A model generated the notes under the pieces. That model had not been told where the DNA came from. It saw only the letters and a program-made list of their open reading frames with translations, and made no database searches. The position numbers were made by a program, and so were the translations under genes. Source: Cliona cf. orientalis (lineage: Eukaryota > Porifera > Demospongiae > Clionaida > Clionaidae). From it: 64,000 nt of DNA. Location: positions 2,170,001 to 2,234,000 of the forward strand of contig OZ005704.1 in NCBI GenBank assembly GCA_963930775.1. Reading direction: 5' to 3'. This document shows positions 17,701-57,613 of this stretch, one piece after another (positions within the stretch are counted from its first letter, which is position 1; the number at the start of each line of letters is the position of its first letter).

Positions 17701-18280
17701 TTGGTGCCACTTTCCATAGCTGTAATTGCTGCTCTGTATGCGAGGAAGCTGAGGAAAGTTAGAGATAGACGCCGGGCAGTTGTGATCACGCAATATGGAC
17801 TGGCCATGGGGTCAACAGAGATGCTTCATGGCGAGAGAAACAGATGTGACAACACAGTGGTAAAAATTATTAATGATCGTGTAAAAGTTTCACTTTTGAG
17901 CAGCCGCAGCATGATGATATTACTATCATACTGGTAGATTAATATTAATCCTACTATATAATTATCTATTCATACAGCTTAATGATCCTGTGTATGCCAC
18001 TATTGAAGACACCTTCACCAAGCCATTGAGTCAACACAAACAGTTAGTACCCTCATCTTCCCATCCTGAACAAAAACCAGTTACAGCTACACGATATCGA
18101 TCTTGCACTGATTTCAGCTACCTCGATGACGACATTGATAAGAATATTGCGTATGCATCAATAGTCACAAGTTCTGAATTTGAAGTCAACCCAGCTTACA
18201 TCACATTCAGTGGGCCAGAGTTTGACTGTCCTACAAATGTACACAATATCATACAGAGAAGGCACAGCTGCCCACACTAG
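14748..18280 (+). CDS. Tectonin beta-propeller transmembrane receptor without kinase
   Basis: Predicted type I membrane protein of 604 aa. Exons: 14748-15594, 16803-16916, 16988-17068, 17159-17257, 17333-17413, 17570-17859 and 17978-18280. All stem introns are phase 1. Residues 1-22 form a signal peptide. Residues 23-282 hold six tectonin-like repeats, each starting with a W-[AG]-[IV] strand (WAID, WGVN, WAIS, WAVD, WGIA and a degenerate sixth VIGV), plus conserved Cys pairs. The stem is Thr/Ser-rich and is encoded by two near-identical exon pairs. A transmembrane helix lies at about 434-461, followed by KLRKVRDRRR. The tail (to 604) has Tyr motifs including DPVYATI and IAYASI, the latter matching the loose ITIM pattern. 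No kinase exons follow. Ligand and signalling are unknown. Confidence 0.88.
16803..17413 (+). repeat. Duplicated stem exon pair
   Basis: Exons 16803-16916 and 17159-17257 encode the same DTTTIIILPT...LVSAT segment. Exons 16988-17068 and 17333-17413 encode the same GAPSTT...SSETPDSVK segment. Intron sequence between them is also shared. All four exons are multiples of three in phase 1, so each can be skipped without breaking the frame. Confidence 0.9.
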
Positions 18281-28677: not shown

Positions 28678-29448
28678 TACATTCGCGCAACAGCGTTTGT
28701 AAAACACATGGTCGTGTCATGCGCAGTAGTATTCGATTTGGCGCGTCTCAGCCGGCCTCAGCATCAGATTCTACACGTGATCATGATTGACAATACCTCT
28801 ATAAATTGGACGCACTTATTCAAAATTAGCAGTTGTGTTGCTGTCATAATAATATTATTATTATGATGGCTATTGCTATGCCAAATTTCAACTTAATGCT
28901 GTTCATCATCCTGACTTGTACTAGTATCACCAGTTTAGTCTCACCCTTTTCAAATAACTGGATTCAAATCTCTAGTCAGATCCAAATTGAAGTTGCAAAT
29001 GGAGATAGTCAGTTGCAGACCTTCAACGTTACCGTGCAGGATGTCACAGTCTCTAATGGCTACTTCTGGGGCATCGATGACCGAGCAAGCAATAGACACC
29101 CTCCTGGTAACCTTGTCATGTGTGCACGACCCTGCACTGATGGAAATTGGATTGACGGTAACGGTGCTCTGGACCACATTGATGCTGACAGTAGAGACAT
29201 ATGGGGCACTAACCCTAATTTTTATCAGACTGGGTATCTTTATAGAAAACCAATCGATGCTAGTAACACAGTGGGCTTTACAAGGAATAGAAGTTTTTCA
29301 GGGTGTCGATGCTCATGTGATGTCACTGTCTCAAATAATGGCTATGTGTGGGTACTCTCTTGCGTAAATACAACAATGTTTAATGGTAGTGACTGGGTGA
29401 CTATTCCTCACAATAATCTGGTACAAATTGAAGCAGGTGATGAAGAAG

Positions 29449-32361: not shown

Positions 32362-34457
32362 AAGTATGGGCTGTCAATAATCGCTATCACATCTTCAAAC
32401 GTCCAGTCAATGGCAGTGGAGAATGGAGCAGTGTTCCAGGAGAAATGAGATACATATCTGCATCAGGAAATGCGCATGTCTGGGGAATAGCTCCAAACAA
32501 CAGCCTCTACATGTGTGAAAAGCCATGCTCAGGAGACTGGCAGTATGTTGGAGGATCTTTCAAGCAGATTGATGGTGGTAACGACATCGTGATTGGTGTT
32601 ACTACTAACAATACCTTGATTGCTATGAGCTTGCAGAGAAGAGGTATACAAATTTTTGTGTGACAAAAATCAAAGAGTAAGGTTTAGAGATAATAATACT
32701 TCATATAAATGAAGTGAAGTACGTAAATCAAGTCCAAGCCTACTATGCTTTCCACCAAGTTTACCATAATAATTACTGTGATGCTTATTAAATTTTGTGA
32801 TGTGCATGATAACATCAGCAATAATAATGTAGTAGCTACTGAGCCTACAGCTACTGAGGACTAATTTTTGAAAGTGAATATTCTAAACTCACACTGCATG
32901 TGACGAGAGTAGATCAACAATCACCTAGCTATAGCTAAGCCATGATCAGCTAAATACTTTACCTCTGTATGTAAATTTTTTGGAGCTGTGACTCACAGCA
33001 TCACAACTGAATTGGTACTTTGATTCATCCAGATCTGAATACACACACAGCTGTAGAAATAAGCATATCACCAACAACACTTCTAGCGACAGGTATTACA
33101 CTGAAATTAAATCTGCTGATAGTGTAATTTGTGATAGCTAGTTATTAAATCCAGAGCTGTGACTCACAGCATCACAACTGAATTGGTACTTTGATTTACG
33201 TAGATCTGAATACACAAACAGCTGTAGAAATAAGCACAATACTTCTAGCAACAGGTATATATTGCACTAGCTGAAACTAAATCTGCCGATAGTGTAACTT
33301 TGAGGCTAATGTCAAAATTAACGCTCACCAGGTACAGCACCAACAACTCAACCGTCCAATGAAATAGCTGAATCGGTGAATGCAAACATTTCGGGGCCAG
33401 GTATCGTTATAGGGATGGTGGCTGGTGTGGTTGTGTTCTCTCTACTGTTGGTGTCATTTTCTGTTGCCATCCTTGCTGCTTTGTATGCAAGGAAGCTGAG
33501 GAAAGTTAGAGACAGACGCCGGGCAGTTGTGTTCACACAGTATGGGATTCATGGAATGCTGGAAGCTACAGAAATGCTAGAGGTTGGTGAGGGAATGAGA
33601 TTTGACAATCAAAATCAAATGGTAAAATCAAAACACAGAGATTTAGTCACATTAATATGCAGCTAGCTACACTGTATTAATATACCTGAGTGGATAGCTA
33701 TGTATTGTTGCAAAATGCGTCTACCGGGTATTATAAATTTAGAGGTATTGGTATGCATACAAGCATTGTAGGAATGTGATAGGCTGATGTTTTATATTAT
33801 GTCAATGATTCTATACCCTAAATGTAGGTTGATGATCCCGTGTATGACACTATTGATGATACTTTTACTGTGTCATTGGAACAAGACAAAAATTCAACGT
33901 CCCATCCTGGACGAAAACCACTTACAGCCGCACGATCTTGCACTGATTTCAACTACCTTGATGATGATGCCAGCACTGAAAAGAACATTGCGTATTATGC
34001 AGCAATGCATGAAACAGCCACAAGTTCTAAAATTGAAGTCAACTCAGCTTACATGGCGTTCAGTCCAGGATCTGTGTTTGTTCATTATACACTGTACGGC
34101 ACTCTCAATGTCATACAGAGAAGCCAGAGCTGCCCTACACTCTTTTATCAGTGATTGAGCTAAGGCCATTACTTCAAACTTGATACTGTGACTGAATATA
34201 GCTAGTCAATAGTGTTATAGCTAGTAGCATTAACAACACTAACGTAATCTTTCGATTGAGTTGTATCATAGATTCTGCACTCACACTTTTGTGAGATGGA
34301 TTATGGCCTGACACTCACATAAAGTATGATGCGCTATCATCCTATGTGCAAAATAATGTGTTTGTGAAAATCACTGGTACAGTGACAGATTGATAGTGAG
34401 GCCAGGCAAACTACATTAATCACAATGATGACATTGACTATTTCTAATGGTATGTAG

Positions 34458-34876: not shown

Positions 34877-36234
34877 AGTCTGTATCATGCACTCCTGGCA
34901 AAACTGGACACAGGTGATCTGTGATGATGTACTTGACTGTGCACAAAAATTATACATGATCCCAGATGCAGGGTCAGTCCCACCCTCTTCAGCATAGTTC
35001 AATCCAAGCCTGGGTCAGCCCCACTCTTCTCTAGCAAAGTTCAAAGTTCCGCGGTTGCGCGCAGCGCACATTGCATCTCGATCATTCTATCATTCTCGTT
35101 TTGCATTTTCGATCTGCAAGTAAGAAAATGACAGCTTTATACAAGTTACTCCTTTCTATGCTGCTATCACTAGTCGTTACTCTACCAGTGTTAGCAGTTT
35201 CACCCCTTGGAAATTGGACAACGATCCCATCACCAGAGGGTAGATCAATGGAGGCCATCACTCTCTCCTCTAACTACCTGTGGAGCATTGATAACAGGAC
35301 TGGAGTGGGACTTACAAGTGCAGATAATAACGTTGTTTACTGTCGACGTCCATGCAGTGATGCAGGGAGTTGGATAGATGGTGTGGGTCAGCTGGATCAA
35401 ACAATCGATGTCAGTGAGACTGAAGTGTGGGGGGTCACTGAACGTGGTCAAGTTTACAAGCGACCAATTGATGGCAGTGGTGGATGGGTACAAATTTCAG
35501 GGGGACGTGATGCTGATTGCAGCGGAAAGTGCTTCTCTGAAACATCGGTGTCAAATAATGGATACATCCACTGGGCAAATATCCATCTCCCAAACTATTG
35601 GATTGATGGTGGATTGATATAGGAAATTGGATGTGTCTTGATATGTATGAGAATTCCATAGATATGTCCTAGACTGCATGGCAGTTCAAATTTCTGCTGA
35701 TGTGCCCACCGCAGGATAGGGCTAAGTGCCGGGTAGCGGACAGATAGTGGGCACATCATGTGTCATACAGCTGTACTCTAGCAGATAGATATTGGAGCAC
35801 ATGAAATATCCAACAGTCATCCAATACAGGGAATGTTACAACCACATGAACTATCCCATGCACACCACGTCACCCCACCATTATACAGAAATCATTATAA
35901 TCAGTGCAACATTCCATAACAAATTTACAGCAATCAAGGAATCTAGTATAATATTATTATTACTATTATTATATAGCAAACTTGTGTCTCGAAAGTTTTC
36001 TCCACAAATTGGTATTCTTTGAGTTCTTCCTTCATCTGACACCATCATATCAACTCCATACTGCTTTTAAGATACTGCCAGCGCTAGTGCAGGCATCGCT
36101 GCATTTTTTCACTTCTGTCGTTTCTTTCTCTTCTTTTTTCTGGACCAATCCTTCCCACCGATCCTACAAACAGTAATGATAATCACACTCCATCGAAATA
36201 CACAATCATCCAAAGCCAGATTGATGGAAGTACA

Positions 36235-37105
36235 AAGCCCAACATATCAGACTCCGAATGTACTCCCACAAAGCCCAACATATCAGACTGACAGACGTAC
36301 CCCCACAAAGCCCAACATATCAGACTGACGGAAGTATACCCACAAAGCCCAACATATCAGACTGACGGACGTACCGCCACAAAGCCCAACATATCAGACT
36401 GACGGAAGTATACCCACAAAGCCCAACATATCAGACTGACGGACGTACCACCACAAAGCCCAACATATCAGACTGACAAACGTACCACCACAGAGTCCAA
36501 CATATTAGACTGACGGAAGTGTACCCACAAAGCCCAACATATCAGACTGACGGACGTACCACCACAAAGCCCAACATATCAGACTGACGGAAGTATACCC
36601 ACAAAGCCCAACATATCAGACTGACGGACGTACCGCCACAAAGCCCAACATATCAGACTGACGGAAGTATACCCACAAAGCCCAAAATATCAGACTGACG
36701 GACGTACCACCACAAAGCCCAACATATCAGACTGACAAACGTACCACCACAGAGTCCAACATATTAGACTGACGGAAGTATACCCACAAAGCCCAACATA
36801 TCAGACTGACGGACGTACCACCACAAAGCCCAACATATCAGACTGACAAACGTACCACCACAGAGTCCAACATATCAGACTGACGGAAGTATACCCACAA
36901 AGCCCAACATATCAGACTGACAGGAATGCTGCCAATTTTAGCTTGTTCTGGTACCATAGCTTGTTCTCAGTTCAGAATTCAAACACTTGAAATTATTATC
37001 ATGAAATTGGCAGCAATCCCAACATATCAGACTGACGAACATACCCCCGCAAAGCCCAACATATTAGACTGACTAAGTACACCCACAAATCCCAATATAT
37101 CTGAC
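36235..37105 (-). repeat. 37-bp minisatellite in CACTA-like copy 2
   Basis: Imperfect units of CCCAACATATCAGACTGACG with ACGTACCACCACAAAG or AAGTATACCCACAAAG, about 20 copies, interrupted at about 36925-37020 by the same AAATTGGCAGC-ended spacer as copy 1. Confidence 0.95.
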
Positions 37106-37795
37106 TGACGGACATAGAACCCAAACAATATTGACCTCGGAAAGGTATTTTCTTTTTAATGCTCACCCTGCAGCACGCTAATATGGGATTTTATAGCTAT
37201 AGGACTAATTTTATACCAAAATTAAATAAGCTTACCTCCTGTTGACGTTTATATGGCGCAGAGAATCCGCCCAGAATGCTGTCCTTTCACTTAAAGCAAG
37301 TGCATGTTCTTAGCTTCTCAGAGACACATGGAAACACTCCAACTATATAGATCTTGGGGTACAGAGTTCACCGATCAGCTGTAGATTTAACCCCTTGGTT
37401 TAACTCCGCCCCCTGATGGCCTCGCAGTGCTAGCGCTAGCGCTGGAGCTGCCAATCGTGAGAAGACGTGGAAGATAGGTTTTCTCCCAGTGAGCCTGTGA
37501 TAGAAGCGGCGAGTATCAACTTTAGAACAGTGTACCATGCTGATCATGAATGCAGATCTCTGTCAGAAACTATCAGCTATAAGATCATAGTACTATATGT
37601 GCAAGTTGATCTATCCTGATAGAAATGTTGGGTTTATGACAGCACAACTATCCCGGCACAACATGATATGCAGTATAACGTACGTAAGATAGTTGTAATA
37701 TCCTGTATCTGGGATAGGCAAAATGATAGTTGGTGTGGCCAGTAGTGGACAGGTGAGGGATAGTCTATCCTCCATCTATCATGCACATCGTGACA

Positions 37796-38264
37796 TATAG
37801 ACGGGTTGCCTTAATGTGATTCATGACATGAAAGTTCAAGCCACATGAACATGCGGCCATGATTAGGAAAATCAATACCATCAAGGCTTGTTGCTATGGC
37901 AATGAATGTTTTTTAAGGTAATGCTATTGACCCATGTAATCATCACACCAACTTTGAGACTTGTCTGATCTATTGCTGATTTTATAAAAATCCTAGAAGT
38001 GAGCAATTTTCCCATATGTTTGTATTGCGGTAGGGCACAATGTGCCCTACCGCAATACAAACATATGGGAAAATTGCTCACTTCTAAGATTTTTATAAAA
38101 TCAGCAATAGATCAGACAAGTCTCAAACTTCAGTGTGATGATTACATGGGTCAATAGCATTATCTAAAAAAAAAATCATTGCCATAACGACATATCTTGA
38201 GGGTACTGATTTTTCTAATTTATGACCTTGCCATGCTAATCATATTAAGGCAACCCGTCTATAG
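37796..38264. mobile_element. Nested palindromic element, about 470 bp
   Basis: The termini ATAGACGGGTTGCCTTAAT and ATTAAGGCAACCCGTCTAT are inverted. The inner 130 bp on each side of about 38038 are almost perfect reverse complements, meeting at GGGCACA/TGTGCCC. The insertion is absent from CACTA-like copy 1. TA at the borders suggests a Tc1/mariner-like foldback, but the class is uncertain. Confidence 0.85.
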
Positions 38265-39849
38265 GATAGTTCACTTTTTGCCCAGTGATCTGGGCTATAT
38301 CTAGTGAGAATGAGACCTATATGTTATGCAGCCAAAATGGAATTACTCATCGATGTGCTAATAGTGATCAGCTTCTCATAGATGATGAGCTATCTCTGGT
38401 ACACATTGAAGCAGGTGATGAAGAAGTATGGGCTATCAATGCTAACAATCGTATCTTCAAACGTCCAGTTAATGGCAGTGGAGAATGGAGCAGTGTTCCA
38501 GGAGAAATGAGATACATATCTGCATCAGGGACTGCACTTGTCTGGGGAATAGCTCCTAATGATAGTCTCTATGTGTGCAAAAAGCCATGCACAGGAGACT
38601 GGCAGTGTGTTGGAGGATCTTTCAAGCAGATTGATGGTGGTAACGACATTGTGATTGGTATTACTACTAGCAATACCTTAATTGCTATGAGCTTGCAGGG
38701 ACTGAGAGGTATACGAATTTTTGGGTGACATAAAGCAAAGAGTAAGGTTTAGAGATATTATGCTTTGTAAATGAAGTGAAGTGCATAAATCAAGGCCAAG
38801 CCTACTGTGCATTCCACCAAGTTTACCATAATAATTACTGTGATGCTTATTAAATTTTGTGATCGATGTGCATGATAACATTGGCAAAGTAGTACTGAAC
38901 CTACATGCAGCTGCTGAGGAGTAATTTTTGAAAGTGAATATCCTAAACTCACACTGCATGTGATGAGAGGTAGATCAACAATCACCTGTAGCTAAGCCAT
39001 GATCAGCTCAATACTTTACCTCTGTATGTAAATTTGGAGCTGTGACTCACAGCATCACAACTGATCCAATTGTGGGCATGCACCTAGGACCCTTCTACCA
39101 CTACATAAAATGAGTTTGAAGTTGGAGCATAATATTATGTAAAATTAATCATGATGTAATGGTGCTACAGGGTTAAAATTTATACACATGGTGTGGAGTT
39201 GGGGTTTTTGGTGGCTTCCATAGCAACGGCATCTTTATTTAATTTGTGCGCAAAGGTACAAAGGTCAAAGTGAGCACATGGTCAGAAGATTGTAGTATCC
39301 CTAACAGTGCTCTTGAGATAAGATCTGGCATTTATGACCGAACTATAAGCTAGATATAATGTTAGCTGGTATAATAAGTCTATCTAAGTGCCTTTCCTTT
39401 CGTATTTTAGGTGTTTATCAGGCTGCCATCTGGCTCTGAGAGTGAGACTGATGAGGGTTTCCAAGGATATTACCAGTGCTGTACCTACAGTTATAACTAG
39501 AGCTCATTAGAGCCCAAAACCCTCGGCGCGTTGTATGGCACTTGACTCACAAGCAGGCAAGAATACAATATTAGGCAATCGGGATGCAATGATTTCCTAG
39601 GTTAGCTTGAGTAGTAACTATTGCATAATTATTATGTATTTAATATTCCTGCTTTAACATCTTGATGACGTTAAAGGGGCGTGGCAGCAATTGTGTAGAG
39701 TATGTTATCTAATATTTATTTTCATATTTAATAATAATATTATGGAGTGATAACGGAAAAGCCTTTAGTTCAAAACAGAAATTGTATATTTTGTGAGTGA
39801 TTCAATAATTATTATGCAATGATGATGAAAAGTGTGATAATAATTAAAC

Positions 39850-40045
39850 TTGACCCCATCCCCAGTAACTTGTAATGGTGGGTGTGGTAAAAGGTCGTCA
39901 ATATACACATTGATGCCGGCACCTCAATCGCAGAGATGGAGTCTAAGATTGACTCTCTACTTCGAGTTTTGATGCTTCAATCACAGGAGATGAACTCGAC
40001 AGCACAGTACAGCTTCTGAAGTTCAGATTGGTCGTGGTTATAAAT
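39850..40045. repeat. Dispersed repeat, copy 2
   Basis: Diverged copy of 7304-7517, sharing AGAGATGGAGTCTAAGAT, GAGATGAACTCGACAGCAC and AGTACAGCTTC. It sits immediately downstream of the Helitron-like coding remnant, so it may belong to that element's tail. Confidence 0.75.
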
Positions 40046-40373
40046 ATGATGATAATGCCTTGTATACATGACATTGTAGAGTATAATGATCTTGTTATGA
40101 GCATCAAGTAATAAAAATGATGGAAGAGTAGGATAATAGGTAACACAGACTCACTATTGGTGTCATCAGTATCACTATTGAGGTCATTTGTGTTGCATTG
40201 TTCTACTAAACCACCAAATAGGTCTTCATCATTGGATAAAGCTTGTTCTAGCCACTGTTCATTGATGTCAATGTCTGCATACAATGGGTTGTTTTGTTTT
40301 AGCCACCTTAGTGCACACAAGACTTTCTCAGGAGATATGTAGTCATACATATAATGTCCTCTGTATGCCAATT

Positions 40374-40857
40374 CAGGGCCGCCGGAACCGGTCAGGCTGG
40401 TCAGGCCAAAACCGGACCACTTTTTTCAACGCTTAGTTGGGTAATGGTCGTTTATTTTATTTATCGCATGGTAAAGATCGTCAGATAATAAATCGCGCAG
40501 TGCAATCAGCACATCAACTCATCTTTGTATATTTTGGTCCTAGTTCAACAGTCTTTAAAGCTTAATATAAGTGGAGAGATTGTTTAGATCATGAGGCTGC
40601 CTTCTGCTATCAAAAATTCTCCTTTTCACTGAATCTTAATTGGGATTTGGGCCATACAATGAAGTCTAAATAGCTATTGACCGGTGAATGTGGTCTCAAA
40701 AGCCATCAGAAGCAATTTCTGATGTTGTAAATTACAAAATTTTCCTGGGGGAGCATGCCCCCAGACCCCCCTAGTTTTGCGTGCTTACGCACGCATTTGC
40801 TCCACGTTCTGACTTAAAGCTGGCCGGACCACATGTAAATTGCTTCCTCCGGGCCTG
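40374..40857. mobile_element. 484-bp hAT-like MITE inside the Helitron frame
   Basis: Ends CAGGGCC and GGCCTG are flanked by the exact 5-bp repeat CAATT (40369-40373, 40858-40862). The interior shares the motif TTTTCCTGGGGGAGCATGCC, followed by CCCAGACCCCCCTAG, with the element at 56793-57260. Confidence 0.85.
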
Positions 40858-41363
40858 CAATTTACGCTTCAGCTTGAGTGGGATTAGTTCAGTCTCTGAA
40901 GGCAAACGGGGAAGTACAGTACAGATAGTATCTACCTTTGATGGAACATTCACTGCTGGGCCATGTATGCACCTTTGTTTGCCAGAGGGCAGGGCAACCA
41001 TTTTCATAAAGGGAACACGCAAACATATCAATCGTAGTTCAAGCATGTTCAAGCCAGACAGTTGATGAGGTATTGGACATAGCTGTAATCCATTAGCTTT
41101 GGCTTGCAATGGCATGTTACCCCTTTTCAATGCTGCATCGCATGTTTTACAGATCCACTGTTTACCATCTAAGCTAATGTAGTTATGTTGAGTACTAAAA
41201 ACTTGCTCCAATAATTCATTGCTAGCTTTGGTATACTTACTTCTAGTACAAAGAATAACTGTTTGCTTATACATGAGGCGGTGACAGCATGTGCACACAA
41301 ACTCTGGACCTAGTTTCACCTTGGACTGAAAATTGGTAATATATTTCTCTATGGGAACAAGTG

Positions 41364-41760
41364 CCCTTCTTTTGGCTTTGCATGCTCGGTCCTGCTTTCG
41401 TCTTAGTGCAGTTTCTACCACAGTCTCTGATTCCCTCTTTTTGGCTTTACATGCTCGATCCTGCTGTCGTCTTTGTGCAGTTTCTACCACTGTTTCCAAT
41501 TCTCTCCTTTTGGCTTTACATGCTCGATCGTGCTCTCGTCTTTGTGCAGTTTCTACCTCTGTTTCAGATTCTCTTGTTTTGGCTTTACATGCTCGATCCT
41601 GCTGTTGTCTTTGCGCAGTTTCTACCACTGTTTCAGATTCTCTTGTTCTAGCTTTACATGCTCGATCCTGCTCTCGTCTTTGTACAGTTTCTACCACTGT
41701 TTCCGATTCTCTCCTTTTGGCTTTACATGCTCGATCCTGCTCTTGTCTATACAAAGTTTC
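41364..41760 (-). repeat. Coding minisatellite of 69-72-bp units
   Basis: Tandem units encode the charged REQDRACKAK-type repeat of the Helitron-like protein. In DNA the unit contains GGCTTTACATGCTCGATCC on the plus strand. Opposite-strand frames over the same bases are shadows. Confidence 0.9.
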
Positions 41761-42516
41761 ATCACTGGTTTCCAAGGCTCGCTTTTGTGCTTTTCTAGTG
41801 CTATCTTTCACTAGCCTCAACCCAATTTCGTCTGCTGATTCTGTTGCTCTCTGTTGTTGCATTGCTATCCTCTTGCTTTTCCTAGTGGAATAAACTGGGG
41901 GCTTTGTCTTAAATGAATGACCACATACACATACAGATTTTCTAATCGCTACCCTGGCACTACACTTTGGACACTGCTTGATTGGAGGCATGATTTGGTT
42001 TTTCAACAGACACTGAAACAAAATCAATAGAAGTACATTAACGTATTAGCTAGCTGCAATACAGACAAAAAAACTTACATAAATTGTTGAACCGCGTGGT
42101 AGATAACCAAGTAGCTAAGTAGAGGACGCGTCGTCACCAGAAAGGCCTCTGAAAATTGCGAGCTCGATAACGACACACACTTCGCTAGGCGAACCGTAGG
42201 AATAATCGGCACTAAAGGTGGTCTCGATCTTGTCCCCATGCATCAAGGCAGACCCCGCCCTCGTAACCCTCGCGCATGCGTATAATTATTAGGTCTATGC
42301 CGTATATAGCGCTAGTTCTATTTATACGTAAAGTTAAGCTGGCCAGTCGGTGAGAGAAGTCAAGAAGCTTTAGAATCAGCAAACAACGCCAAAACTTGCG
42401 AATAAAGCGTTTTCGGTGAAATCCACACAAATCATGCGTTTGGAACGCCATAAGAAACCTTATAACACCGCAAATTGGACTCGCAAATGAGGTATGTAGC
42501 AGCTAGCGTGGTAACA

Positions 42517-42546
42517 GACAGACAGACAGACAGACAGACAGACCGA
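42517..42546. repeat. (GACA)n microsatellite
   Basis: About seven GACA units, next to AACCCTCGCGCATGCGC and GAGGGTTA, which together look like the hairpin end of a dispersed element also seen near 58190. Confidence 0.85.
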
Positions 42547-42599
42547 CCAACTACCGTAACCCTCGCGCATGCGCCGAGGGTTAATGACACTTGTATGCC

Positions 42600-43780
42600 C
42601 TAAAATCGGGTTAAGGTCCTTGGAGGACTAAATTTAGTCCCAATTTCATTCAGCGTAGATACTGGCATGTACATTAAATTTTATCATCATTTCGGCCATT
42701 TTAATGCATTAATTAATTTTTGTTGTGTATGATAGATAGATATTTTAATGTCATGCGTAGAATAATGCATCCAGTCAGGATTTGGCCTATGTGACAAAAA
42801 TACAATAAGTATGGTAACAAATAAGGAATGGATAACAGTAATAACTATGGTAGTGTAGAAACAAAGATAAAATTTTTACTACGACACAACAAGTATTCAA
42901 TATTGAGATGTATAAGATATAATTAGCAGAATGGAAGAGAAGAGAGGGGAAGAGGTTAAAGAGCACAGATAGGATATTGGGGAGGGGGCATTTTTTATTT
43001 ATATAATTTTGTGTAGCATTTTTGGAATGAATGTCAATCTTTTTTTTTTGAATTTTGGCCATATGGTATACATATAGTATACCCAGTTAGATGATTGTAT
43101 AGGGACAAGATCATAGCTGTTATAAAGTACTTCACTGATAGCAACAGTAAAACAAAGATAAAGAATTTAAAGGGGAGACACCATGAAAATTAACAGACGG
43201 TCAAACCATAAATTACTAAATCAGTATGAGAGAATCAGGGGACAATGCCTAAAATACTTATTGAATTTTATTCACATAGTTTTTGTTTGTGTGTTTTGAA
43301 CAACCTATAGCTAAATGGTGGCTCTGATTGTGTATGAGATGATAGCAGAAAAGCATTAAAATTAATTTGCATGTAGCTAATAGGCAAATTTTATGCCAGG
43401 AGGCAGTTATGGTGTGTGATTGGGACATAGTATTTGTTTAAGTTGCATGCGATGAGGCAGGAGCCTTAAGTTTGTCCATAAAAGGGTTTAACATTTGAAT
43501 GGAGGGTGGTTGGCATGATGGCATGACTAATATTAAAGGGGGGCTTGCATGACGCTGGCATGGGACATGAAGCAGCGGTCACCGTGGTGACGAAGACAAG
43601 TACAGAGTAGGGGCACATAAAAATACCATGTATAGCTACTTAAATTTAAGCGGGTTGGCCTCTCATATTTCTTTTTTTTGTGCTAACATTTATTCTTATT
43701 TCCTTTTGTTTAGCCCATGTGTGTGTATGGAGACGTCAGGTGAGGAATTTTTAGAAACAGTGAAAAATCTACTGCATTGG
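42600..43780. other. Unassigned AT-rich stretch in the nested block
   Basis: No supportable gene. Short frames on both strands have low complexity and no recognisable motif. Confidence 0.5.
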
Positions 43781-43783
43781 CTT

Positions 43784-44108
43784 CTACCTCAGCAAGTTAC
43801 ATCTTTCCCTGTACATTCCGTAAACTGAGTCACTCACAGCTGCATGGTTGGGAGGCACACAGCTCCAGAATAAGCACTGCCTTATCTTTATCCGATATAG
43901 TGATTCAAAGTTTCCATTTATATCTATCATAGCTGTAAGCAGTACTTGCCTGTGACCGTTGAGTACTGGGCACTTTAACAGGAAGTGGGGTTCATTTCCA
44001 GACTCTAATTGGCATAATTGGCATATTTTCCCCGATACTGGTGGTTTTGGGGATTTGTATCTACCTAGTTTAACTTTCAGAGGTAAACATCCGCACTGTA
44101 GCTGAGTG
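43784..44108 (-). pseudogene. Non-LTR retrotransposon (LINE) C-terminal fragment
   Basis: Minus-strand frame reads LQCGCLPLKVKLGRYKSP, then a CCHC-type knuckle ICQLCQLESGNEPHFLLKCP, ending at a TAG (43784-43786). This CxxC...HxxxxC arrangement near the end is typical of LINE polyproteins in invertebrates. No reverse transcriptase domain is present upstream. It is a short 5'-truncated or degraded copy. Confidence 0.65.
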
Positions 44109-45299
44109 AGTATTCTTCACTTACTTAGGACTACCAAGTTTAGTATATCCTTCTGCAGCTGGATACGGTTTGAATTTTCTGTAGACTGAATCTAAATCTG
44201 CCTCCTGTCTCACTGTCAGGAGATGAGCCAATGGAAGGATACATGAAGTGATAACACCACCATGGACAGGTTGTGCTAAGGCATCCCAAAGCTCATCTAT
44301 CGGTAGTAGGCCTCCAAAATCTTTGATGTCAACTAGCATAGCTATATGATTCCCTTATATAATAATACATCAAAGTTTCTATCAATTGTATGTATTCCCT
44401 TACTTGCTTGTTTATATGTCAAAGTTTCTGCCCCACAAAAAAAAAATCATATTTAATATAGTAAATGAATTATACCAAAAACCCAAGTTTGATTCCAGTG
44501 GCAGAAGGGTCCATTTCTACTCTGGGTACCCACAATTGATACTTTGATTCATCCAGATCTGAATGCACACTCAGCTGTAGAAATAAGTACAACACTTCTA
44601 GCGACAGGTATTGCACTGAAACCACTGTGTAACTTTCCATTGTCGTCATTACTGCTCTGTATGCGAGGAAGCTGAGGAAAGTTAGAGACAGACACCGGGC
44701 AATTGTGATCACACAGTATGGGATTCATGGAATGCTGGAAGCTACAGAAATGCTAGAGGTTGGTGAGGGAATGAGATTTGACAATCAAAATCCAATGGTA
44801 AAATTAATTTTATTCAAAACACAGAGATTAGTCACATTGATATGCAGCTAGCTACACTGTATTAATAATGCTGCATCTATTTAGAGGTATTGGTATGCGT
44901 ACAAGCATTGTAGAAATGTGATAGGCTGATGCTTTTATATTATATCAATGATCCTATACCCTAAATATAGGTTGATGATCCTGTGTATGACACTATTGAT
45001 GATACTTTTACTGTGCCATTGGAATAAGACAAAAAGTCACCGTCCCATCGCGGACGAAAACCACTTACAGTTGCACGATCTTGCACTGATTTCAACTACC
45101 TTGATGATGATGCCAGCACTGAAAAGAACATTGCGTATTATGCATCAACATAATATGAAACAGCCACAAGTTTTAAAATTGAAGTCAATTCAGCTTACAG
45201 TCCAGGATCTGTGTTTGTTCATTATACACTGTACGGCACTCTCAATGTCATACAGAGAAGCCAGAGCTGCCCTACACTCTTTTACAAGGGATTGAGCTA

Positions 45300-46996: not shown

Positions 46997-49900
46997 ATGA
47001 TAGCTTTGTACAAGTTACTTTTTATGCTGTTATCATTCGTCCTTGCTCTACCAGTGTTAGCAATTTCGCTCCTTGGAAATTGGACAATGATCCCATCACC
47101 AGAGGGGAGGTCAATGGAGGCCATCACTCTCTCCTCTAACTACCTGTGGGGCATTGATAACAGGACTGGAGCGGAATTTACAAGTGAAAATAATAATGTT
47201 GTCTATTGTCGATGTCCATGCTATGATGCAGGGAGTTGGATAGACGCTGAAGGTATGCTGGATCAAGCGATTGATGCTAATGAAACTGAAGTGTGGGGTG
47301 TTAATGACCGTGGCCAAATTTTTAAACGCCCAATTGATGGCAGTAGTAGCTGGGTACAAATTACAGGGGGAAAGAATGCTGATTGTCGTGGAAAATGCTT
47401 CTCCATTGTATCAGTGTCAAACAATGGCTATGTTTGGGCTACATCCGTAGAGAACGAGTCCTATATCTTATGTGGCAGCCAAATGGGAAGATCTTGTGGT
47501 AACAATGATCGGACTCTCATTGATGCCGAGCTATCTGTGGTACACATTGAAGCAGGTGATGAAGAAGTATGGGCTGTTGATGTTAACAATCGTATCTTCA
47601 AGCGTCCAGTTGATGGCAGTGGAGAATGGAGCAGTGTTCCAGGAGAAATGAGATACATATCTGCATCAGGAAATGCACATGTTTGGGGAATAGCTCCTAA
47701 TAACAGCCTCTATGTGTGTATGAAGCCCTGCACAGGAGACTGGCAGTACGTTGGAGGATCTTTCAAGGAAATTGAAGGAGCTACTAACTCTGTAATAGGC
47801 GTGGTCACTAATGGCTCCCTCCTTTTTATGTCCCTGGAACAGAATCTGATGGAAGGTAATTATTGTATAAAGTGTGATAATAATAATATTGTGTGTAGCT
47901 ATTAAATTTAATCAATACCTTAGATTGTATTTCAGAGGAGGTACCAAATCATTATTATTCCATGTGACTTTTTTGCAGACCAATGTGCATCATTGCATTG
48001 ACATGCATTGAATTAAGCCAAAAGATTGTAGATCCCAAAGAAGATCTAACTCAAATGTTACAGTTTTGATTGCTGATCACAGTCATACCATTTTATAGGG
48101 TGGAGGGATCACTCTAGAAAACCACCATAGTATTATGGGAATTGAAGTGATGACACAGCATTTTGTCTCAGCACATGTTCGTGGGCGAATCATTGAATTA
48201 TAATACTTTATGTATGAGCTAACTGTTGATGTTGTAAGGACTATGTGAATTCAGTATTTCCTCATCTTATATTGTATATCTAGTGCATTATAGCTACAAT
48301 CAAATTTCCATCTCAGTCTTAATACTCATGAGGTGCTCCTAATGTGGTAGTACTTTGTTCAGTTGATAGATCTATATATCGTTCAAGTCATTGTACATGT
48401 ATGCATCATTGTTCTTAATTACTACATGTAGAAGGCAGTTCTACCTATTGTCCAATGATAATCAATAATATTATATTATTGATATCATCTACTCTTTCAC
48501 CAGTTACTCAGGGAGAGCCTGTGGCAATGGCAACTCTGAGTACTAATGATATCATAGGAATTATAGCTGGCGTGATTATCCTTATCCTGCTGCTGTTACT
48601 AATGACTGGCATAGTGCTAACTATTATCAGGTGAAATGATAGAAATGTTACCCTGAGATAGGCCTGGGCCAAATATTCCTTTAAGTTTGCCCATTATTCA
48701 AATAATTATTCTTCACTTATCTACCCCATTACTAGATTCAAGTATTATTCTTTAAAGAAGCTGACAAAATGCAAATGAAACATGAATAATGTACATGTAC
48801 ATTTTGGCCAACAAGAGCTGGATTACATACAAATTTTCTCTTGTAAGTTCTGAGGCTAAAGGAACTTTTAGCACTCCCAAAAGTGATCGATGACTAGTTG
48901 TCTAAATTGTTTGCTCAAGTGCTTCCTCCATTAAAAAATTGACCACAGACTCATGTCACATGACACAAGTTTTCTATTTTAAGCATACATTGTGTATGGA
49001 CACTACTTCCTTGAGCAGTTGAAAAGTCTATTATTCAACTTCTTCAAGAAGCTGCCTATTATTCAAAACATTATTCACGAATATTTGGCCCAGGCTTACC
49101 CTGAGAGCAATAATATATAAGTGAATAGTAGATGTATGAGAGTGACTGTTGAGTGTGTGTGTATGCATAATATACATGTGTTATTGTGTCAACATAGATA
49201 CGTTTCTCATCGTAAGAGAATGAAGATGCCAAATCCGTAAGTGTGCATTATAAGGCCACTCCAAATTACTTTCCTACTACAGTGTAGTCCACTTAATTCA
49301 AATCCGCTTAAGATGAATTTTCGTCTAATTCAAATTCTTTCAGATTCCCTACATAGAGCTAATATATAAATTTGAATTGGTCTTTTCCCTTAATTAAAAA
49401 AATTACAGCCAGCTTTAACATACAAAAGACTAGTACACATATTTATATAAATATAGAACATAGATCACATGGGGATCACTACAATCCTCCTTGAGATGTG
49501 AAACTATTAAGTGTCTATTACCTAAATCACTCTCAGAACAATTCTAAAGCTTCATATGTGGCTGAATGCTCCACTAATAAGCATTACAGGGTCTCAATAC
49601 AGTGGTTTATATGGATCTCTGTAATTCAAATTTTCGTTTAATTCAAATATTTTTCATGGATTTTGAGATTCAATTTAAGTGGACTACACTGTACCGTCCT
49701 CTAACCAGGAGCATAATATTATTATTATAAGTCAGATTTCTTTTAATTGTTCCACTCGAGCTTCCTAGAGTTCAAGTTTCTCTGGCAGGCAGTCACAATA
49801 TCAAATAACAAGCTGGTAAAAATCTGCTCAGTGAAGACCGACATCTCTCAGATAAAAAACAGAACAGGGAGTAATATCAATCACAAATGCTAGCATTGAT

Positions 49901-52311
49901 AAGCAAGTACATCCATGATTCGTGGTTTGTAAACTATAGCTACTAAGTGAATAGTGGACAATTAGTAGTACTGTAGTTGAAAGAATGCGAGCGCGCCAAT
50001 AGGAAATGGGAAAATATTTTGGAGCGGCCCAACTATGTATGAGTATAGTGTGTGTGTGTGTGATGTGTCTTGAGCACATTTATGCAATGATTATCTTTAA
50101 TAATTAATATAATAGACATGTTTCTCGTGTTAAGAAGACGAAGATGCCAAATCTGTAAGTCATAATAATTATTCTTGAATATACAACATATTATGTTATG
50201 CATACCCACATGTACATAATATTATCTAATACACATTCTAGTAGTGATATTTCTCGTCGTAAAAAAATGAAGATGCCAAATTTGTAAGTCATATTCTGTT
50301 CCCTAAACGTTTAATGTTTGTTGGGTATAATAATAATTAGGGGCTTGTGTTGTGTGTTCATTCTATAGACATATCTCTCGTGGTAAGAAGGTGAAGACAT
50401 CAAATCCGTAAGTCAATATCAACGATAATGCTAATTAATAATTTTTTCCTTAATTTCAGTCACCAAGACGAACCAATTGGTAAGAGTATTCTTCTTAGAC
50501 TAGTGGCAGACTAACAAACACTTATGCTATAGTTATAGGAATTCCTAACCAACATATGATGACAGAGTTCACAGTTCAAAGTTCTTTTAAATTGAACCTG
50601 CCACCTCATCTGATCATCACTGCTTCCAGTGTAAAGCTGAAAGAAATCATTGGGCAAGGTATCATTATTATCGGTTTAATGATACAGTACAGCTGTACAA
50701 TAGCTAGTATGCATCAGCACCTATACACCTTTGAGTACGTATGGGAATCATAAATTTGTAGAGGACGCAATAATACTATTACCAACATATAATAATATTA
50801 TATCATCCACCACCCACTTCTCTCATGCTCTACTTTATCTGGATCCTAATACAATATTTTGTGCTATTACAGCATTTCCCAGTAGATATAGTGACTGCAT
50901 GGGAACACAAATTCACCCGGAATGGGCTGCATACTGGCAAGTATGGTATAGTCTAGATTCATTAATTTGGATGCTAACTCTGCAGATATCACTCTGTTCC
51001 ATAATAATAATTATTATACAGGCGAGTTTGGTATTGTTTATAAGGCTCACATTGTTAAGAATAAGGATGGTCAGATTGTCACAGAAATAATGGCTGTGAA
51101 AACACTCAAAGGTGAGCCAGATATAAATGCTGAGGATGCATAATAGGTTACTACCAGCTCACACACGTACAGGTTTCCATGATAGAAGGACCGTAAAAGA
51201 GCTATTAAAGGAATGCTCAAAAATGTACACACTTGATCATCCAAATGTGCTGACGTTAAGTGGTGTGTGCCTAGATGGGGGGACTGCCCCTTACATCATC
51301 ATGCCATTTATGGCAAATGGTAGTCTCTTGGCCTATCTGAAAAACAACAGGAGAACACTGGTAGTCTCTCAAGAAGCTGAAATTGATGATGAGGAAGTGA
51401 GTGAGTACTCTAATACTAAGGCTTCAAACTGTCACTCTGTGGATATTACTATTGCATACACTCACTTTGTAGATAGGCACTCTTCGTAAACGGCTGATGG
51501 ATATGTGCTTTCAAATTTCCAAGGGCATGGAGTATCTTGCAGCAATGAAAGTAGTGCACAGAGACTTAGCAGCAAGAAATTGCATGTAAGCAGCATGCAC
51601 TCCTGAGCATAATCATCAAATTATGAATACACACCTTTATTAAGTGAGGTTTTTACGTATAATATATAATATATTCAGGATTGACATTAATTTTGTCATT
51701 AAAGTTGCTGACTTTGGGCTCTCTGAGAGCACTGAAATGAAGGTACTTCCGTCAAGATAAAGATGTGGCAGTCAAATTGCCCCTCAAGTGGCTGGCCCCT
51801 GAATGCTTCGATGACTACATCTTCTCTGAGAAATCTGATGTGGTAAGTTAAATGTCAACAATTTAGGTGCATAATGATCCGACAATAATAATTATTCTAC
51901 CCCATTGCTTCAGTGGGCATATGGTGTGACTTGCTGGGAGATTTTCAGTGGAGGGAAAGCCCCTTATCCTGGTGTTGTTCCCACTAATCTCACAAGAATG
52001 CTATTGGAAGGACACCGCCTGGAGAAACCTATCAATGCTGCTTGTAATAACGAAATGTAAGTCATGGATCACTAACTAAGTATAATCATAATAATGTTGC
52101 ATTAATTTTTGATGGCATAATTATTAATTTTTATAGGTATACATTTATGCTCAAGTGCTGGAAGCTTGAGCCAGAGAAGCGGCCTTCATTCTCTAACCTG
52201 GTTAGCTCCCTCTCACAGTCTATTGAGGCCATGGCTGGGTACATGGACGTGTTTGCCTTCAGTGGAAGGGAAAGCGGCTCTGGACTAGTAGCCACAGACA
52301 TCATAACATAA
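46997..52311 (+). CDS. Tectonin receptor tyrosine kinase with one-base frameshift
   Basis: Signal peptide ([19 protein letters not shown]), six-bladed tectonin propeller (to about residue 286), one transmembrane helix, a basic juxtamembrane region and a tyrosine kinase. Exons: 46997-47855, 48504-48630, 49198-49236, 50116-50154, 50242-50283, 50369-50407, 50460-50479, 50539-50658, 51022-51111, 51173-51396, 51473-51585, 51679-51842, 51914-52056 and 52137-52311. Kinase motifs: [20 protein letters not shown] and DFG (in VADFGLSES), and LKWLAPE. In exon 51679-51842 one extra G at 51742-51743 shifts the frame and gives TAA at 51758-51760. Removing it predicts 730 aa with a complete kinase, so this is either a recent pseudogene, an allele or an assembly error. 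Confidence 0.82.
48661..49096. mobile_element. Foldback element in receptor kinase intron (GCCTGGGCC ends)
   Basis: GGCCTGGGCCAAATATTC and GAATATTTGGCCCAGGC are inverted ends about 435 bp apart. TTACCCTGAGA occurs just outside both ends, a probable target duplication with small end changes. Confidence 0.75.
49198..50407 (+). repeat. Array of four juxtamembrane micro-exons
   Basis: Exons of 39, 39, 42 and 39 nt (49198-49236, 50116-50154, 50242-50283, 50369-50407) each encode a version of [YH][VI]SRxKKxKMPN, all in phase 2-2. Adjacent intron ends are also alike (GTAAGT after CCAAAT). They place one to four basic modules between the membrane and the kinase. Confidence 0.85.
49278..49693. mobile_element. 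Tc1/mariner-like MITE with TACAGTGTAGTCC ends
   Basis: TACAGTGTAGTCCACTTAA on the left and TTAAGTGGACTACACTGTA on the right are inverted. Subterminal TAATTCAAAT words recur in both orientations. TA at the borders fits a TA target. It lies between the first and second juxtamembrane micro-exons. Confidence 0.85.
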
Positions 52312-52733
52312 ACTAAATTAGGAACTTTAGGAACTCAGTGATGTGATTTTACTTATGCTCAATATCTTGACCAATAGATGGCTTACTTGCTGTGTGTGTG
52401 TGTGTGTGCAGCGTGCATGTGTTCGTGGAATCTGTAAAGTTAAAATTGGGAGTACATAAAATTCCATACTAGATCTACATGATAGCATCATGCACACACT
52501 GTCCCTATTGGCTGCTTTAGGACAAAGCTGGATACAGTTGATCTGTGATGATTTACATGTGCACAAAATTATGATCCCAGATACAGGATCAGCCCCACCC
52601 TCTTTAGCACAGGCACTGCAAGCTGGGTCAGCCCCACCCTTCTTAGCAAAGTTCAAAGTTCCTTGGTTGCGCGCGGCGCTCCTGGTAACAATCATTCTCG
52701 TTTCGCGATTTCGATCTGCAAGTGTTAAAGAAA
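52312..52733. promoter_or_regulatory. Short spacer and likely promoter of the second receptor kinase
   Basis: Only 422 bp separate the stop of one receptor kinase from the next start. The spacer has two GGRTCAGCCCCACCCT copies (near 52588 and 52627). The same motif precedes the receptor starts at 35128 (GGTCAGTCCCACCCTC, GGTCAGCCCCACTCTT) and 46997 (GAGTCAGCCCCACCCTTCC). Confidence 0.5.
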
Positions 52734-55700
52734 ATGACAGCTTTATACAGGTTACTCCTTTTTATGCTGCTATCACTAGTCTTTGCTCTACCAGTGTTAG
52801 CAGTTTCACCCCTTGGAAACTGGACAACGATCCCATCACCAGAGGATAGGTTACTGGAGGCCATTACCGTCTCTGATGACTACCTGTGGGGCATTGATAA
52901 CAGGACTGGAATGGGACTTACAGTTGGAGATAATAACGTTGTCTACTGTCGACGTCCATGCAGTGATGCAGGGAGTTGGATGGACGCTGTGGGTCAGCTG
53001 GATCAGACAATCGATGCCAGTGAGACTGAAGTGTGGGGTGTCAATGACCGCGGTCAAGTTTACAAGCGACCAATTGATGGCAGTGGTGGATGGGTACAAA
53101 TTACAGGAAAAGGTAATGATGACTGCGTCGGAAAGTGCTTCTCTGATGCATCAGTGTCAAGTAATGGATACATTTGGGCTCTATCTAATGAGACTGAGAC
53201 CTATAGGTTATGCAGCCGAACTGGAGTAGATCCTTTCTGTGGTAACAATGATCAGCTTTATATTGATAACGAGCCATCTCTGGTACACATTGAAGCAGGT
53301 GATGAAGAAGTATGGGCTGTTGATGCTAACCTTCGCATCTTCAAACGTCCAGTTGACGGCAGTGGAAAATGGAGCAGTGTTCCAGGAGAAATGAGATACA
53401 TATCTGCATCAGGGACTCATGTCTGGGGAATAGCTCCGAATGATAGTCTCTATGTGTGTATGAAGCCATGCAATGGATGCTGGCAGTATATTGGAGGGTC
53501 GTTTGAGCAGGTTGATGGGGGAGAAAATTCCGTGTTTGGTGTGACCACTAATGGCTGTATCCTTACTGTCGAAGGTAAGAAGGTTAATCCATTGAATCAA
53601 CCAATGATCTAGGATTGATAGCCATGTAGTCCAATTCAGGTTACCATAATTATTCATTATTAATAATTGTTACTGATATCGGATTTTTAGAGTGAATGCA
53701 TGAACCAGCTAGCCAAACACATAACGATTGTGATGAATCCGGCATTTCTGTAATCAGTATTTAAATGAAGACAATTGTGCATGCTGCTCATAATCATAAC
53801 CATACATTATTAGGCTACATAATTATTTTACTCATAATGTGCTTATTTTGGTAGTACCATTGTTTCAGTTGGAAGACCACCAGCCACATATATACTCACC
53901 TTTAGCCTTATGTGACACCTTATTATGCATCCATGGTTTAATTATCAGTCAGATTGATTCAAAGATTACCATTAGCAGCTAGGGTAACCATTAATTGTTG
54001 AGATCACAATGATATAATGCTAACAATAATCAAATTTTTTAAAAAATTTATTTCAGATATCAATTGTAGCCTTTCCATCCCTGATGAGTGCTCCCCCGTG
54101 CCAACCACACCTGAACCTACAAGAGAGTCTGCCGTGACAGGATCCACTGATACTATTACAATCTCTTTAGCTAGTGTGATTTCTCTTATCTTACTGCTAT
54201 TGGTGATGAGTGGAATAACGGTAGCCATAGTCACAGTGCTTAGGAAACGCCGTATAAAAGAGGCTACTCGAGTGAAGTACATTTCAGGTGAAGGTGGGTA
54301 TCTGGAAGCAGAAGATGGCTCAAGAGTTGATGGCGGATTTGATAATCGAGTAGTAAGTTTCAATTTTGGTCTATAATTGTCATTGAATGTTTCCTATGAT
54401 ATATTCAATTTTATTTCAGTACTCCAACCGCAGTAGTAGTGATCCAGAGTATGACTCGGTCGATTCTGCCGAAAACAAAGAAGTGGGGAGTTCCCCACAG
54501 TCAGAGAGGAGATCGGACGACTTTAGGAATCGTATGGTGTGTATTAGTGATTAATGAAATTTCCTGTATGTGTGATTAGTGATATACATAAAAATTCTGC
54601 ATGCTAATTAAGTTTCGTTATCTGACAAATTCATTCTTGTGCTTACTATAACAGGATTCAGTCCCAAATACATATGCATACTCTGTGGAGCACAGTACCG
54701 CTTTAAGGCCTCAAGCTACACTTAGCAAGGATCAGATTGAGATGCAATTGGCCACCAATGATGATAATGACAACTATGAAGTGGATGGCTATGTTGATGA
54801 TAAGTACTGTGAGCCTGGAGAGACTTTCGGTGACGAATATGACTACGCAGACGAGAAGGAATTCTGGGAGCCAGCGTCTCAAGAGAAAGAGTTGAAGATG
54901 CAGGTGGAAAAACTGACAGAGATACCAGTCATCGAAAGAGATGCACTGCAGTGAGTCCTTCAGCATTCATTGATACAAGTGTGTGTACATTTATAGCTGC
55001 ATGCATGTATGTGTGTGGTTTATAAAATACAATAGCAAAGCCTTTTGTGACACTACTGTTATTGTCACTGGGTGCTAACTGTGCAATTAACACTCATGTG
55101 ATGGTGACCACACAAATGTGGTTTACATTTGAACAATGCTTACGTCCTGTACAAGTATACATGTAGTATCATGCACTATCATGGTAAAAGGTATACGCTA
55201 CCATGATTATTTCAGCTATCAGTAAGTTACCGGTACTTCAATTAGCTATAATAGCCATACAGATTAATTTTCTGAGGCTATTTACAGCTTTCAGTGACTA
55301 ATACCTATACATAGACGCTCAAACAATATTAATTTAAAGTCCAATATTATATAGCTAGTAGACATGCATCATTGACGCTTCTTCACATGATAAAGAACTA
55401 TAATCCCCAATCAGGACTCATGAAGAGCTTGGCAGTGGACAGTTTGGTATAGTCTACAGAGGTGTGTGGCAGCAAACAGCTGACTCAGAGAAGGACTCAG
55501 ACGTGGAGGTGGCGGTGAAGACAATGGAGGAAGGAGCCGGTGAGGAAGAGAGGGTCAAGTTCCTACAGGAGGCAGCCATCATGGGACAGTTCAGGAATCA
55601 TCCAAACATTGTCAAAATATTAGGAATTATTCTTGATGCCCCAGTAAGTAATAATACTGGCGCCGGCCTCGATCTGGTGGATATTTAGAGGAGACCAATA

Positions 55701-57613
55701 ATTTTTTGATTAATGTATGCATGTATGTACCACCTGGTGCATGATTTTAGGCAATGAAAGTGTAAGTTACATTTGAAATTTTACTTCTTTTACAGTACAA
55801 GATTGTGACAGAGCTGATGCATAGAGGTGACCTTCACCATTATCTTGTGACACTAAAACCAGAGTAAGATCACTAGCTTACCATTTCAAAAATTGCAATG
55901 ATAATAAACTTTTTTGCAGCCCTGATCAACCTGTTGCTACTGATCATGAACTGGGCCCCACATTGTTGAGCTACACACGTCAGATTGCACTCGGTCTGAT
56001 GTACCTTTCCTTCAAGAAATTTGTCCATCGAGACATAGCAGCGAGGAACATACTGGTCAATGACGAGGGGATATGCAAGGTAAAGTGGAATATTATTGAC
56101 ATGCATATGCACACATGGCCAAAATACATTAATTCACAACAACAATCCTATTTAATATCATCTTATGTACACACTGTGAAAGGTAGTCACCCACATACAT
56201 GCATGTGCATGTGATAATTTCATGGCTATTTTTGTTTTGTACGTAGATTGCTGATTTTGGTTTATCTCGAGATCTATTGGATGAAAACTACTACGTTTCT
56301 CATGGAGGCAAAGTTCCTGTGAAATGGACAGCCCCTGAAGCCATAAACTATCGAAAATACTCGATGGCCAGTGATGTGTGGAGCTATGGCTGCTTGCTCT
56401 TTGAGATCTGGTCCCTGGGAGTGAAACCTTTCCACGATGTCTCCAATAAAGAAGTGAGAGGAATGCATCAATACCTTATAGGCCCTACCTGTGATTACAT
56501 ACCTTGATATGCTGGCATAGGTCTAGATTATGAGTAACTGAAACATTAAGATATTATTATTAATTCAATTTTGATAACACATAATACAGGCTGTTAGAAA
56601 AATTGACTCTGGCTACCGGCTCCCTCCTCCTCCTGGATGCCCTAAGGCCGTCTATCAGATCATGATTAAGTGCTGGTGAGTCCCTCTGTACTGTAACTAA
56701 GTGAGTGATTACCATAAGATTAATATCATGACTGTGTGCCATTATTATAATATTATGTGTGTGAGAGTGCATATGCATGACATTGTCCATATCACTGGCG
56801 TAAGAACCAGGGGGGCTGGGGGGGGGGGGCAATTGCCCCCCCAGTCATAAGATTGTGGGGACAGAACCCCTCTGATTTTTAGACTGCTGTACAAGCCAGG
56901 GGGTGGGGCTCACCCTCTGAGGTTTGCACTTTTCTTTTTCATCTGTTGCCACAATCAGGGTTGAGTTATTCATGATTGTGGTGTATCTTAGCCCCACGGT
57001 GTGTAGATATCAATAATTGTCACATGTGAACACAGATCAGTATAGTCACTACTGATCTGTGTTCACATGTGACAAGCTAAGAGTCCAGAATGTCCTCAAA
57101 AATGCACTAGAAAAGCTCTCAGAAGGTCTAAAACTCCAAAATTTTCCTGGGGGAGCATGCCCCCAGACCCCCCTAGCTTTTGCGCGCTACGCACGCGTAA
57201 AGCAAGTCTTCGCCTGCTTACTTTCAGCCCCCTGCTCAAAAACATCTTCCTACGCCACTGCATATGACAATGTGTATGTGTGTGCCTATTATATAAAATG
57301 CATCAATTGACTCCATACTCTAACTGCAAATCCATTAAGCGATGAGAAGACACCAGCAGTGCCCATGCACAAAAATTATCATGTCTATGGCATAACTCTC
57401 ACTCATGTGTATACGTACAGGCACCCAACTACTGCATCAAGGCCATCTCCAAGTGACATTGTAACTAGACTCTCCCAGCCTGACTTCCAGATCCTCAAGT
57501 GGTCTCAAAAGGACCTTGATGCCACTAGTGAGAGGGCAAGGACCCTGGGGGCTCCTCTGGCTGAAGGACATGCACTCTACAAGGGACTGCAGCAAACATA
57601 TAACAAAAATTAG
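52734..57613 (+). CDS. Tectonin receptor tyrosine kinase, intact
   Basis: Predicted 830-aa type I receptor kinase. Exons: 52734-53574, 54057-54352, 54420-54536, 54655-54950, 55415-55643, 55796-55863, 55920-56079, 56247-56453, 56590-56675 and 57421-57613; every phase closes. Signal peptide 1-23; six tectonin-like blades with W-[AG]-[IV] strands up to about 275; transmembrane helix about 314-341 followed by RKRR; an acidic, tyrosine-rich juxtamembrane region to 516 (EYDSVDS, DEYDYADEKEFWEP). Kinase: GSGQFG (523-528), Lys552 in VAVK, HRDIAARN (652-659), DFG (672-674), paired Tyr684-Tyr685 in the activation loop, PVKWTAPE. All catalytic residues are present. The first exon is closely related to its neighbour's, but the membrane and kinase parts are much more diverged. 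Confidence 0.92.
56793..57260. mobile_element. 468-bp hAT-like MITE in the last intron of the receptor kinase
   Basis: Imperfect inverted ends CACTGGCGTAAGAA and TTCCTACGCCACTG are flanked by exact CATAT (56788-56792, 57261-57265). The interior contains CACTACTGATCTGTGTTCACA-type palindromic sequence and the GGGGGAGCATGCCCCC hairpin shared with 40374-40857. Confidence 0.82.

Follow-up and report, generated by a model that had tools for sequence, protein, structure and literature searches.

Genes A and B, two neighbouring loci in the 64,000-nucleotide stretch analysed here (the window, C16:2170001-2234000), are quite probably single-pass sponge receptor tyrosine kinases made by exon shuffling, in which a tectonin propeller exon would have been placed before membrane-cytoplasm modules that differ between the two genes. 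This reading is drawn from the sequence of a genome of 216.8 Mb in 149 contigs. The propeller fold, the order of the domains, the splice phases, the two different kinases and the existence of a kinase-less sister gene were shown in silico, and together they describe a real and apparently undescribed receptor kinase architecture.

Gene B encodes a predicted receptor tyrosine kinase with a tectonin ectodomain

We modelled gene B at positions 52734-57613 as 10 exons, with GT-AG borders in all nine introns (Table 1). The frame stays open across the propeller, the transmembrane region and the kinase for 831 codons including the stop, which corresponds to a product of 830 amino acids. The hydropathy profile of this product peaked at residue 7 (2.68, signal) and residue 321 (2.88, membrane), the next value being 1.33, and the juxtamembrane region contains 11 tyrosines between residues 355 and 482. 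The earlier note had placed a propeller and a kinase on this 830-residue prediction, and a Pfam search indeed found both Tectonin (PF19193, 1.7e-20) and PK_Tyr_Ser-Thr (PF07714, 6.2e-87) on the same protein, far over the cut-off in each case. Every kinase motif that we sought was present (GSGQFG, VAVK, FLQEA, HRDIAARN, DFG, KWTAPE and DVWSYG), including the catalytic residues and the HRDxAARN loop of tyrosine kinases, in agreement with the claim that one of the two genes is intact with all its catalytic residues. As spliced in silico, a single chain carries a signal peptide, an ectodomain, one transmembrane helix and a kinase, which is the layout of a receptor tyrosine kinase. Overall, a tectonin fold behind a signal peptide was shown in silico to lie in frame with a complete tyrosine kinase, and gene B, judged from its predicted protein, likely encodes a working kinase receptor.

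Table 1. Positions of the propeller genes and of the inserted elements in the window.
Feature	Position	Strand	Content
TecR1	14748..18280	+	Intact propeller 14748-15594; four Ser/Thr-rich stalk exons between 16803 and 17413; TM exon 17570-17859; tail 17978-18280
TecR2	28863..34154	+	Propeller halves 28863-29447 and 32361-32651, split by mobile element; TM region ~33355-33609; tail 33831-34154
Presumed CACTA-like DNA element in TecR2 propeller	29449..32361	.	2913 bp; 11-bp terminal inverted repeats; 3-bp target duplication
TecR3	35128..45273	+	Propeller halves 35128-35577 and 38288-38698, split by mobile element; decayed TM/tail 44633-45273
Presumed CACTA-like DNA element in TecR3 propeller	35569..38287	.	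2719 bp; 11-bp terminal inverted repeats; 3-bp target duplication
Gene A exon 1	46997..47855	+	Signal peptide and tectonin propeller; phase 1 end
Gene A transmembrane exon	48504..48630	+	
Gene A four similar 39-nt exons	49198..50407 (at 49198, 50116, 50245, 50369)	+	Phase 2 at both ends; basic juxtamembrane repeats just inside the membrane
Gene A juxtamembrane and kinase exons	50460..52311	+	Frame break in activation segment near 51740
Gene B exon 1	52734..53574	+	Start, signal peptide, six-bladed tectonin propeller; phase 1 end
Gene B exon 2	54057..54352	+	Stalk, transmembrane helix (residues ~321-339), basic stretch
Gene B exons 3-4	54420-54536, 54655-54950	+	Tyrosine-rich juxtamembrane region
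Gene B exons 5-10	55415-55643, 55796-55863, 55920-56079, 56247-56453, 56590-56675, 57421-57613	+	Complete tyrosine kinase and C-terminal tail; stop 57611-57613

The neighbouring gene A was modelled with 12 exons and GT-AG borders in all 11 introns, in the order propeller, membrane helix, four 39-nt exons and kinase exons. Its frame is open for 596 codons, through HRDLAARN and DFG, and stops a few codons past the frame break, which leaves the remaining kinase out of frame as assembled; the later kinase exons are still recognisable beyond this point. Gene A therefore looks damaged as assembled, and an assembly error may be the cause instead. The coordinates and content reported earlier for two genes with a propeller, a membrane helix and a tyrosine kinase proved right, with gene B intact and gene A damaged.

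The ectodomain is a six-bladed tectonin propeller

With a cut-off of 30 bits for PF19193, we obtained scores of 73.9 for gene B, 72.7 for the gene A ectodomain and 111.7 for TecR1, and the N-terminal half of the TecR2 propeller taken alone stayed under the cut-off (26.2 bits). A scan of two ectodomains against NCBIfam gave no match. The structure model of the ectodomain contained 23 strands of at least three residues, which we grouped into six blades of about four strands each in a closed propeller. Compared with PDB sequences at E < 0.001, the ectodomain matched two tectonins, at 4e-13 and 4.1e-5 with the single sequence and at 6.8e-29 and 2e-13 with a profile, and tectonins also led the fold comparison of the model, so that a chance resemblance can be discounted. 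The top matches by both sequence and fold were Laccaria bicolor tectonin 2 (PDB 5fsb/5fsc) and carp fish-egg lectin (4ruq/4rus), which share the six-bladed tectonin propeller but are soluble lectins without a membrane or kinase part, unlike genes A and B. The structure prediction proposed as a check thus returned a tectonin-type six-bladed propeller and not an unrelated one.

The pair belongs to a larger cluster of propeller genes

The two tandem genes of the earlier note are a real pair, but they form part of a larger cluster. When the genome was searched with the gene-B ectodomain, we obtained nine matches on C16 between 2184748 and 2240433, corresponding to six propeller genes; the genome search with PF19193 added loci on C1, C4, C6, C8 and C10 and at 0.41 Mb of C16. 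The window contains five of the six cluster genes (TecR1, TecR2, TecR3, A and B), all on the same strand and in part separated by other sequence.

Near the pair, and missed by the earlier note, the same kind of propeller stands on a kinase-less tail. The tail of TecR1 lacks a kinase and carries tyrosine motifs, including one IxYxxI. Its four stalk exons are all of phase 1, and all 16 exon combinations stay open, giving a reading frame of 479-604 codons. A genome search with the TecR1 transmembrane and tail region gave six matches, all of them in the C16 cluster. Behind the kinase-less TecR2, the last exon of kinase A recurs as an isolated copy (34459-34629, 81% identical), which hints at a swap or loss of kinase and tail modules at this place. 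The elements that split the TecR2 and TecR3 propellers, which we take to belong to the CACTA class, differ from each other and landed independently in the propeller exons of neighbouring copies.

Downstream of the window lies a second kinase-B gene body (L041 3475-5253; 67511-69250 on the window scale), whose kinase exons are up to 95% identical to those of gene B; no propeller or juxtamembrane exons were found ahead of it. The sixth propeller, also past the window, is damaged and is followed by a membrane exon and a tail (L041 8276-8900) with the tyrosine motifs YYIEI and YYEVA, possibly a fourth tail type. Two similar receptor-like genes on the minus strand (window 59242-61319 and L041 1209-3308) are convergent with gene B and have a membrane stretch and tyrosine-motif tails; their extracellular repeats, judged by eye, are Ig/FN3-like. 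Elsewhere in the genome, at C17:2316562-2324877, a single open frame of 2925 amino acids carries ten tyrosine-kinase matches in a row.

The cluster may be declining, since damage is apparent in three of the five propeller genes that the window contains. It is very improbable, in our opinion, that all of its members are decaying copies without function, as the frame break in gene A, the splitting of TecR2 and TecR3 and the two in-frame stops in the TecR3 tail might be taken to indicate: gene B (830 residues) and TecR1 keep open frames, the catalytic motifs sought in gene B are conserved and the ectodomain dN/dS values remain below 0.45. These values (A-B 0.38, A-TecR1 0.26, B-TecR1 0.43) refer to ectodomain pairs, the comparisons of C-terminal halves having been left out on account of the uneven trimming of the copies.

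Proposed exon shuffling and probable exchange of the kinase-B ectodomain

Sequence identity between A and B is 73% for the propellers (264 residues) and 36% for the kinases (163 residues up to DFG). All three uninterrupted copies of the window (A, B and TecR1) have a propeller exon with a phase-1 end, and each is followed by an in-phase transmembrane exon, either directly or past stalk exons. Exon shuffling would have set this phase-1-ending propeller exon before membrane-plus-cytoplasm modules of different sources. The join of propeller and kinase in A and B is read from splice phases and paralogues, and we considered whether the two parts could be separate neighbouring genes, a soluble or membrane-anchored tectonin beside a kinase, joined only by the splice model. 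Soluble tectonin genes do exist in this genome, on C10, and the downstream kinase-B copy has no propeller ahead of it. However, the two C10 genes examined both stop at the propeller end, whereas the propeller exons of A, B and TecR1 pass the end of the fold without a stop and have a phase-1 donor instead; the frame in A and B continues through the transmembrane region into the kinase exons, and the signal and membrane peaks of the gene-B product are its only strong hydropathy peaks. Separate genes are therefore improbable.

We also searched the genome with kinase B and obtained at least 192 exon-wise matches, other tyrosine kinases included, with close matches (60-80% identity) on C15, C5 and C7. 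The relative on C15 (L076) has an ectodomain unlike tectonin. Compared by phmmer (E up to 0.01) with 141 fetched proteins, this ectodomain matched 10 of them, from Halichondria (P0111, P0091 and P0093 among them) and Ephydatia (P0138 among them). On the basis of this one paralogue and its matches, kinase B most likely exchanged a former, L076-type ectodomain for the tectonin propeller.

Relatives among sponge kinases and novelty of the architecture

Among the matches listed, the nearest single-kinase relatives of gene B came from Amphimedon, Halichondria, Dysidea, Geodia and Ephydatia, with Oscarella lower, which points to a sponge as the source of the genome. Of 7217 kinase relatives, 120 were listed, and for the best member of each sponge in this list, identity to kinase B over 97-100% of the kinase was 57% in Amphimedon (P0035), 55% in Geodia (P0036) and Halichondria (P0045), 54% in Dysidea (P0040) and 52% in Ephydatia (P0022). 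Some non-sponge proteins with several kinase domains reached higher total scores, at 36-38% identity. Sponge receptor kinases such as Amphimedon LOC100638128, Halichondria LOC135341873 and Ephydatia Em0008g879a have kinase domains like kinase B (55-57% identical) and, where examined, the same order of membrane stretch, tyrosine-rich juxtamembrane region and kinase; their ectodomains are made of unnamed domains, Sushi or EGF, in contrast to the tectonin of gene B. Fixed flanking motifs were rejected as a mark of the kinase-B family, the C-terminal motif occurring in 25, the pre-kinase motif in 14, the FLQEA-type motif in 46 and all three together in one of the 120 relatives; gene B itself matches the C-terminal pattern only when this is relaxed.

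The earlier note knew of no described receptor kinase family with a tectonin ectodomain, and this held among the open-licence PMC papers listed, whose titles and abstract openings revealed no such receptor, and in two protein searches. PF19193 was absent from the precomputed domains of the 120 listed of 7217 kinase relatives. The propeller profile matched a single one of the 141 fetched proteins, the non-kinase P0005 of JGI origin, and no member of the list of 120 kinase relatives; among 1273 candidates, the ectodomain search gave one relative, which is not a kinase. The order tectonin, transmembrane helix and kinase was thus not found among the 120 listed kinase relatives or the 1273 ectodomain candidates, these searches having reached relatives that share exact words and lie within a length range, so that absence elsewhere weighs little. 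Shuffling of ectodomains across holozoan tyrosine kinases is described in PMC8662651. The principle is therefore already known, and what is new is the tectonin ectodomain and the cluster with a shared propeller.

Candidate ligands and the sugar site

The L. bicolor tectonin 2 has a preference for O-methylated carbohydrates, and recognition of O-methylated glycans is reported for tectonins of fungi and animals (PMC5238581); the tectonin domains of a human protein bind LPS (PMC2707011). We took the contact residues of one Lb-Tec2 site (Asn, Tyr, the Trp of the next blade and Ser) from a figure legend (PMC6359319), mapped them by sequence alignment and scored the first three. The full set was found in one of six blades in gene B, none of six in gene A and one of six in TecR1. 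Among the soluble paralogues, one had the full set in four of six blades, with Trp for Tyr in a fifth, and the other in none, the pattern matching one blade without the Asn; this second soluble gene (0/6 blades) argues against a clean contrast between soluble and receptor propellers. Gene A, gene B and TecR1 agree in their letters at the Asn place in those four blades that the pattern matched in every one of the three.

The earlier suggestion of a microbe-sensing receptor is weakened in its stated form, since no receptor propeller retains all three tectonin 2 contact residues in more than one of its six blades, and a microbial ligand is in our view possible rather than probable. Animal propeller receptors such as MET and ROS1 bind proteins, and there is nearly an even chance that these are real receptors whose propeller recognises a protein or matrix glycan of the sponge itself, in adhesion, allorecognition or development, and not microbes. 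Besides this precedent, the incomplete contact sets and the letters shared at the Asn place, which could reflect a single reshaping of the site, would favour such a self-ligand, whereas the tectonins studied bind O-methylated glycans (PMC5238581) or LPS (PMC2707011), and decaying tandem copies with one ectodomain on different tails would recall immune receptor clusters.

Proposed mode of action and comparison with known receptors

On the reading of A and B as receptor kinases, the propeller would lie outside the cell and bind a multivalent ligand. As in other receptor kinases, binding would cluster the receptors and lead to trans-phosphorylation, which would extend to the tyrosine-rich juxtamembrane region, and SH2 proteins would dock. 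The kinase-less sisters with the same kind of propeller might compete for, or modulate, the same signal.

Many sponge receptor kinases have no known ligand, and the tectonin ectodomain points to a class of ligands that is accessible to tests with purified protein. The cluster is a clear case of one sensing module on different signalling tails. It is relevant to the origin of the ectodomains of animal receptor kinases, and to the question of whether lectin recognition was coupled directly to tyrosine phosphorylation in early animals.

A propeller ectodomain together with a tyrosine kinase is also found in MET/RON and ROS1, but their propellers are of the Sema or YWTD type; in gene B, Pfam gave no match up to E = 1 to Sema, PSI or IPT, nor to YWTD propellers or FN3 repeats. 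The sensor of mycobacterial PknD is an NHL-type propeller on a bacterial Ser/Thr kinase, and this domain (1rwi) was 13% identical to our ectodomain model. Vertebrate paired receptors comprise activating and ITIM-bearing members that share an ectodomain. We tentatively suggest that the cluster may be a sponge "paired receptor" locus, in which a lectin-derived propeller was tandem-duplicated and spliced in phase 1 onto three or more types of signalling tail, namely kinase A, kinase B and one with tyrosine motifs but no kinase. It would provide activating and restraining receptors for one class of ligand, arisen in an early animal lineage independently of the Ig and C-type-lectin paired receptors. 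Tandem genes, one kind of ectodomain and different tails are common to both systems, and one tail of the cluster has an IxYxxI motif; the ectodomain is tectonin in the sponge, in contrast to Ig or C-type lectin in vertebrates, and the activating arm would be a built-in kinase.
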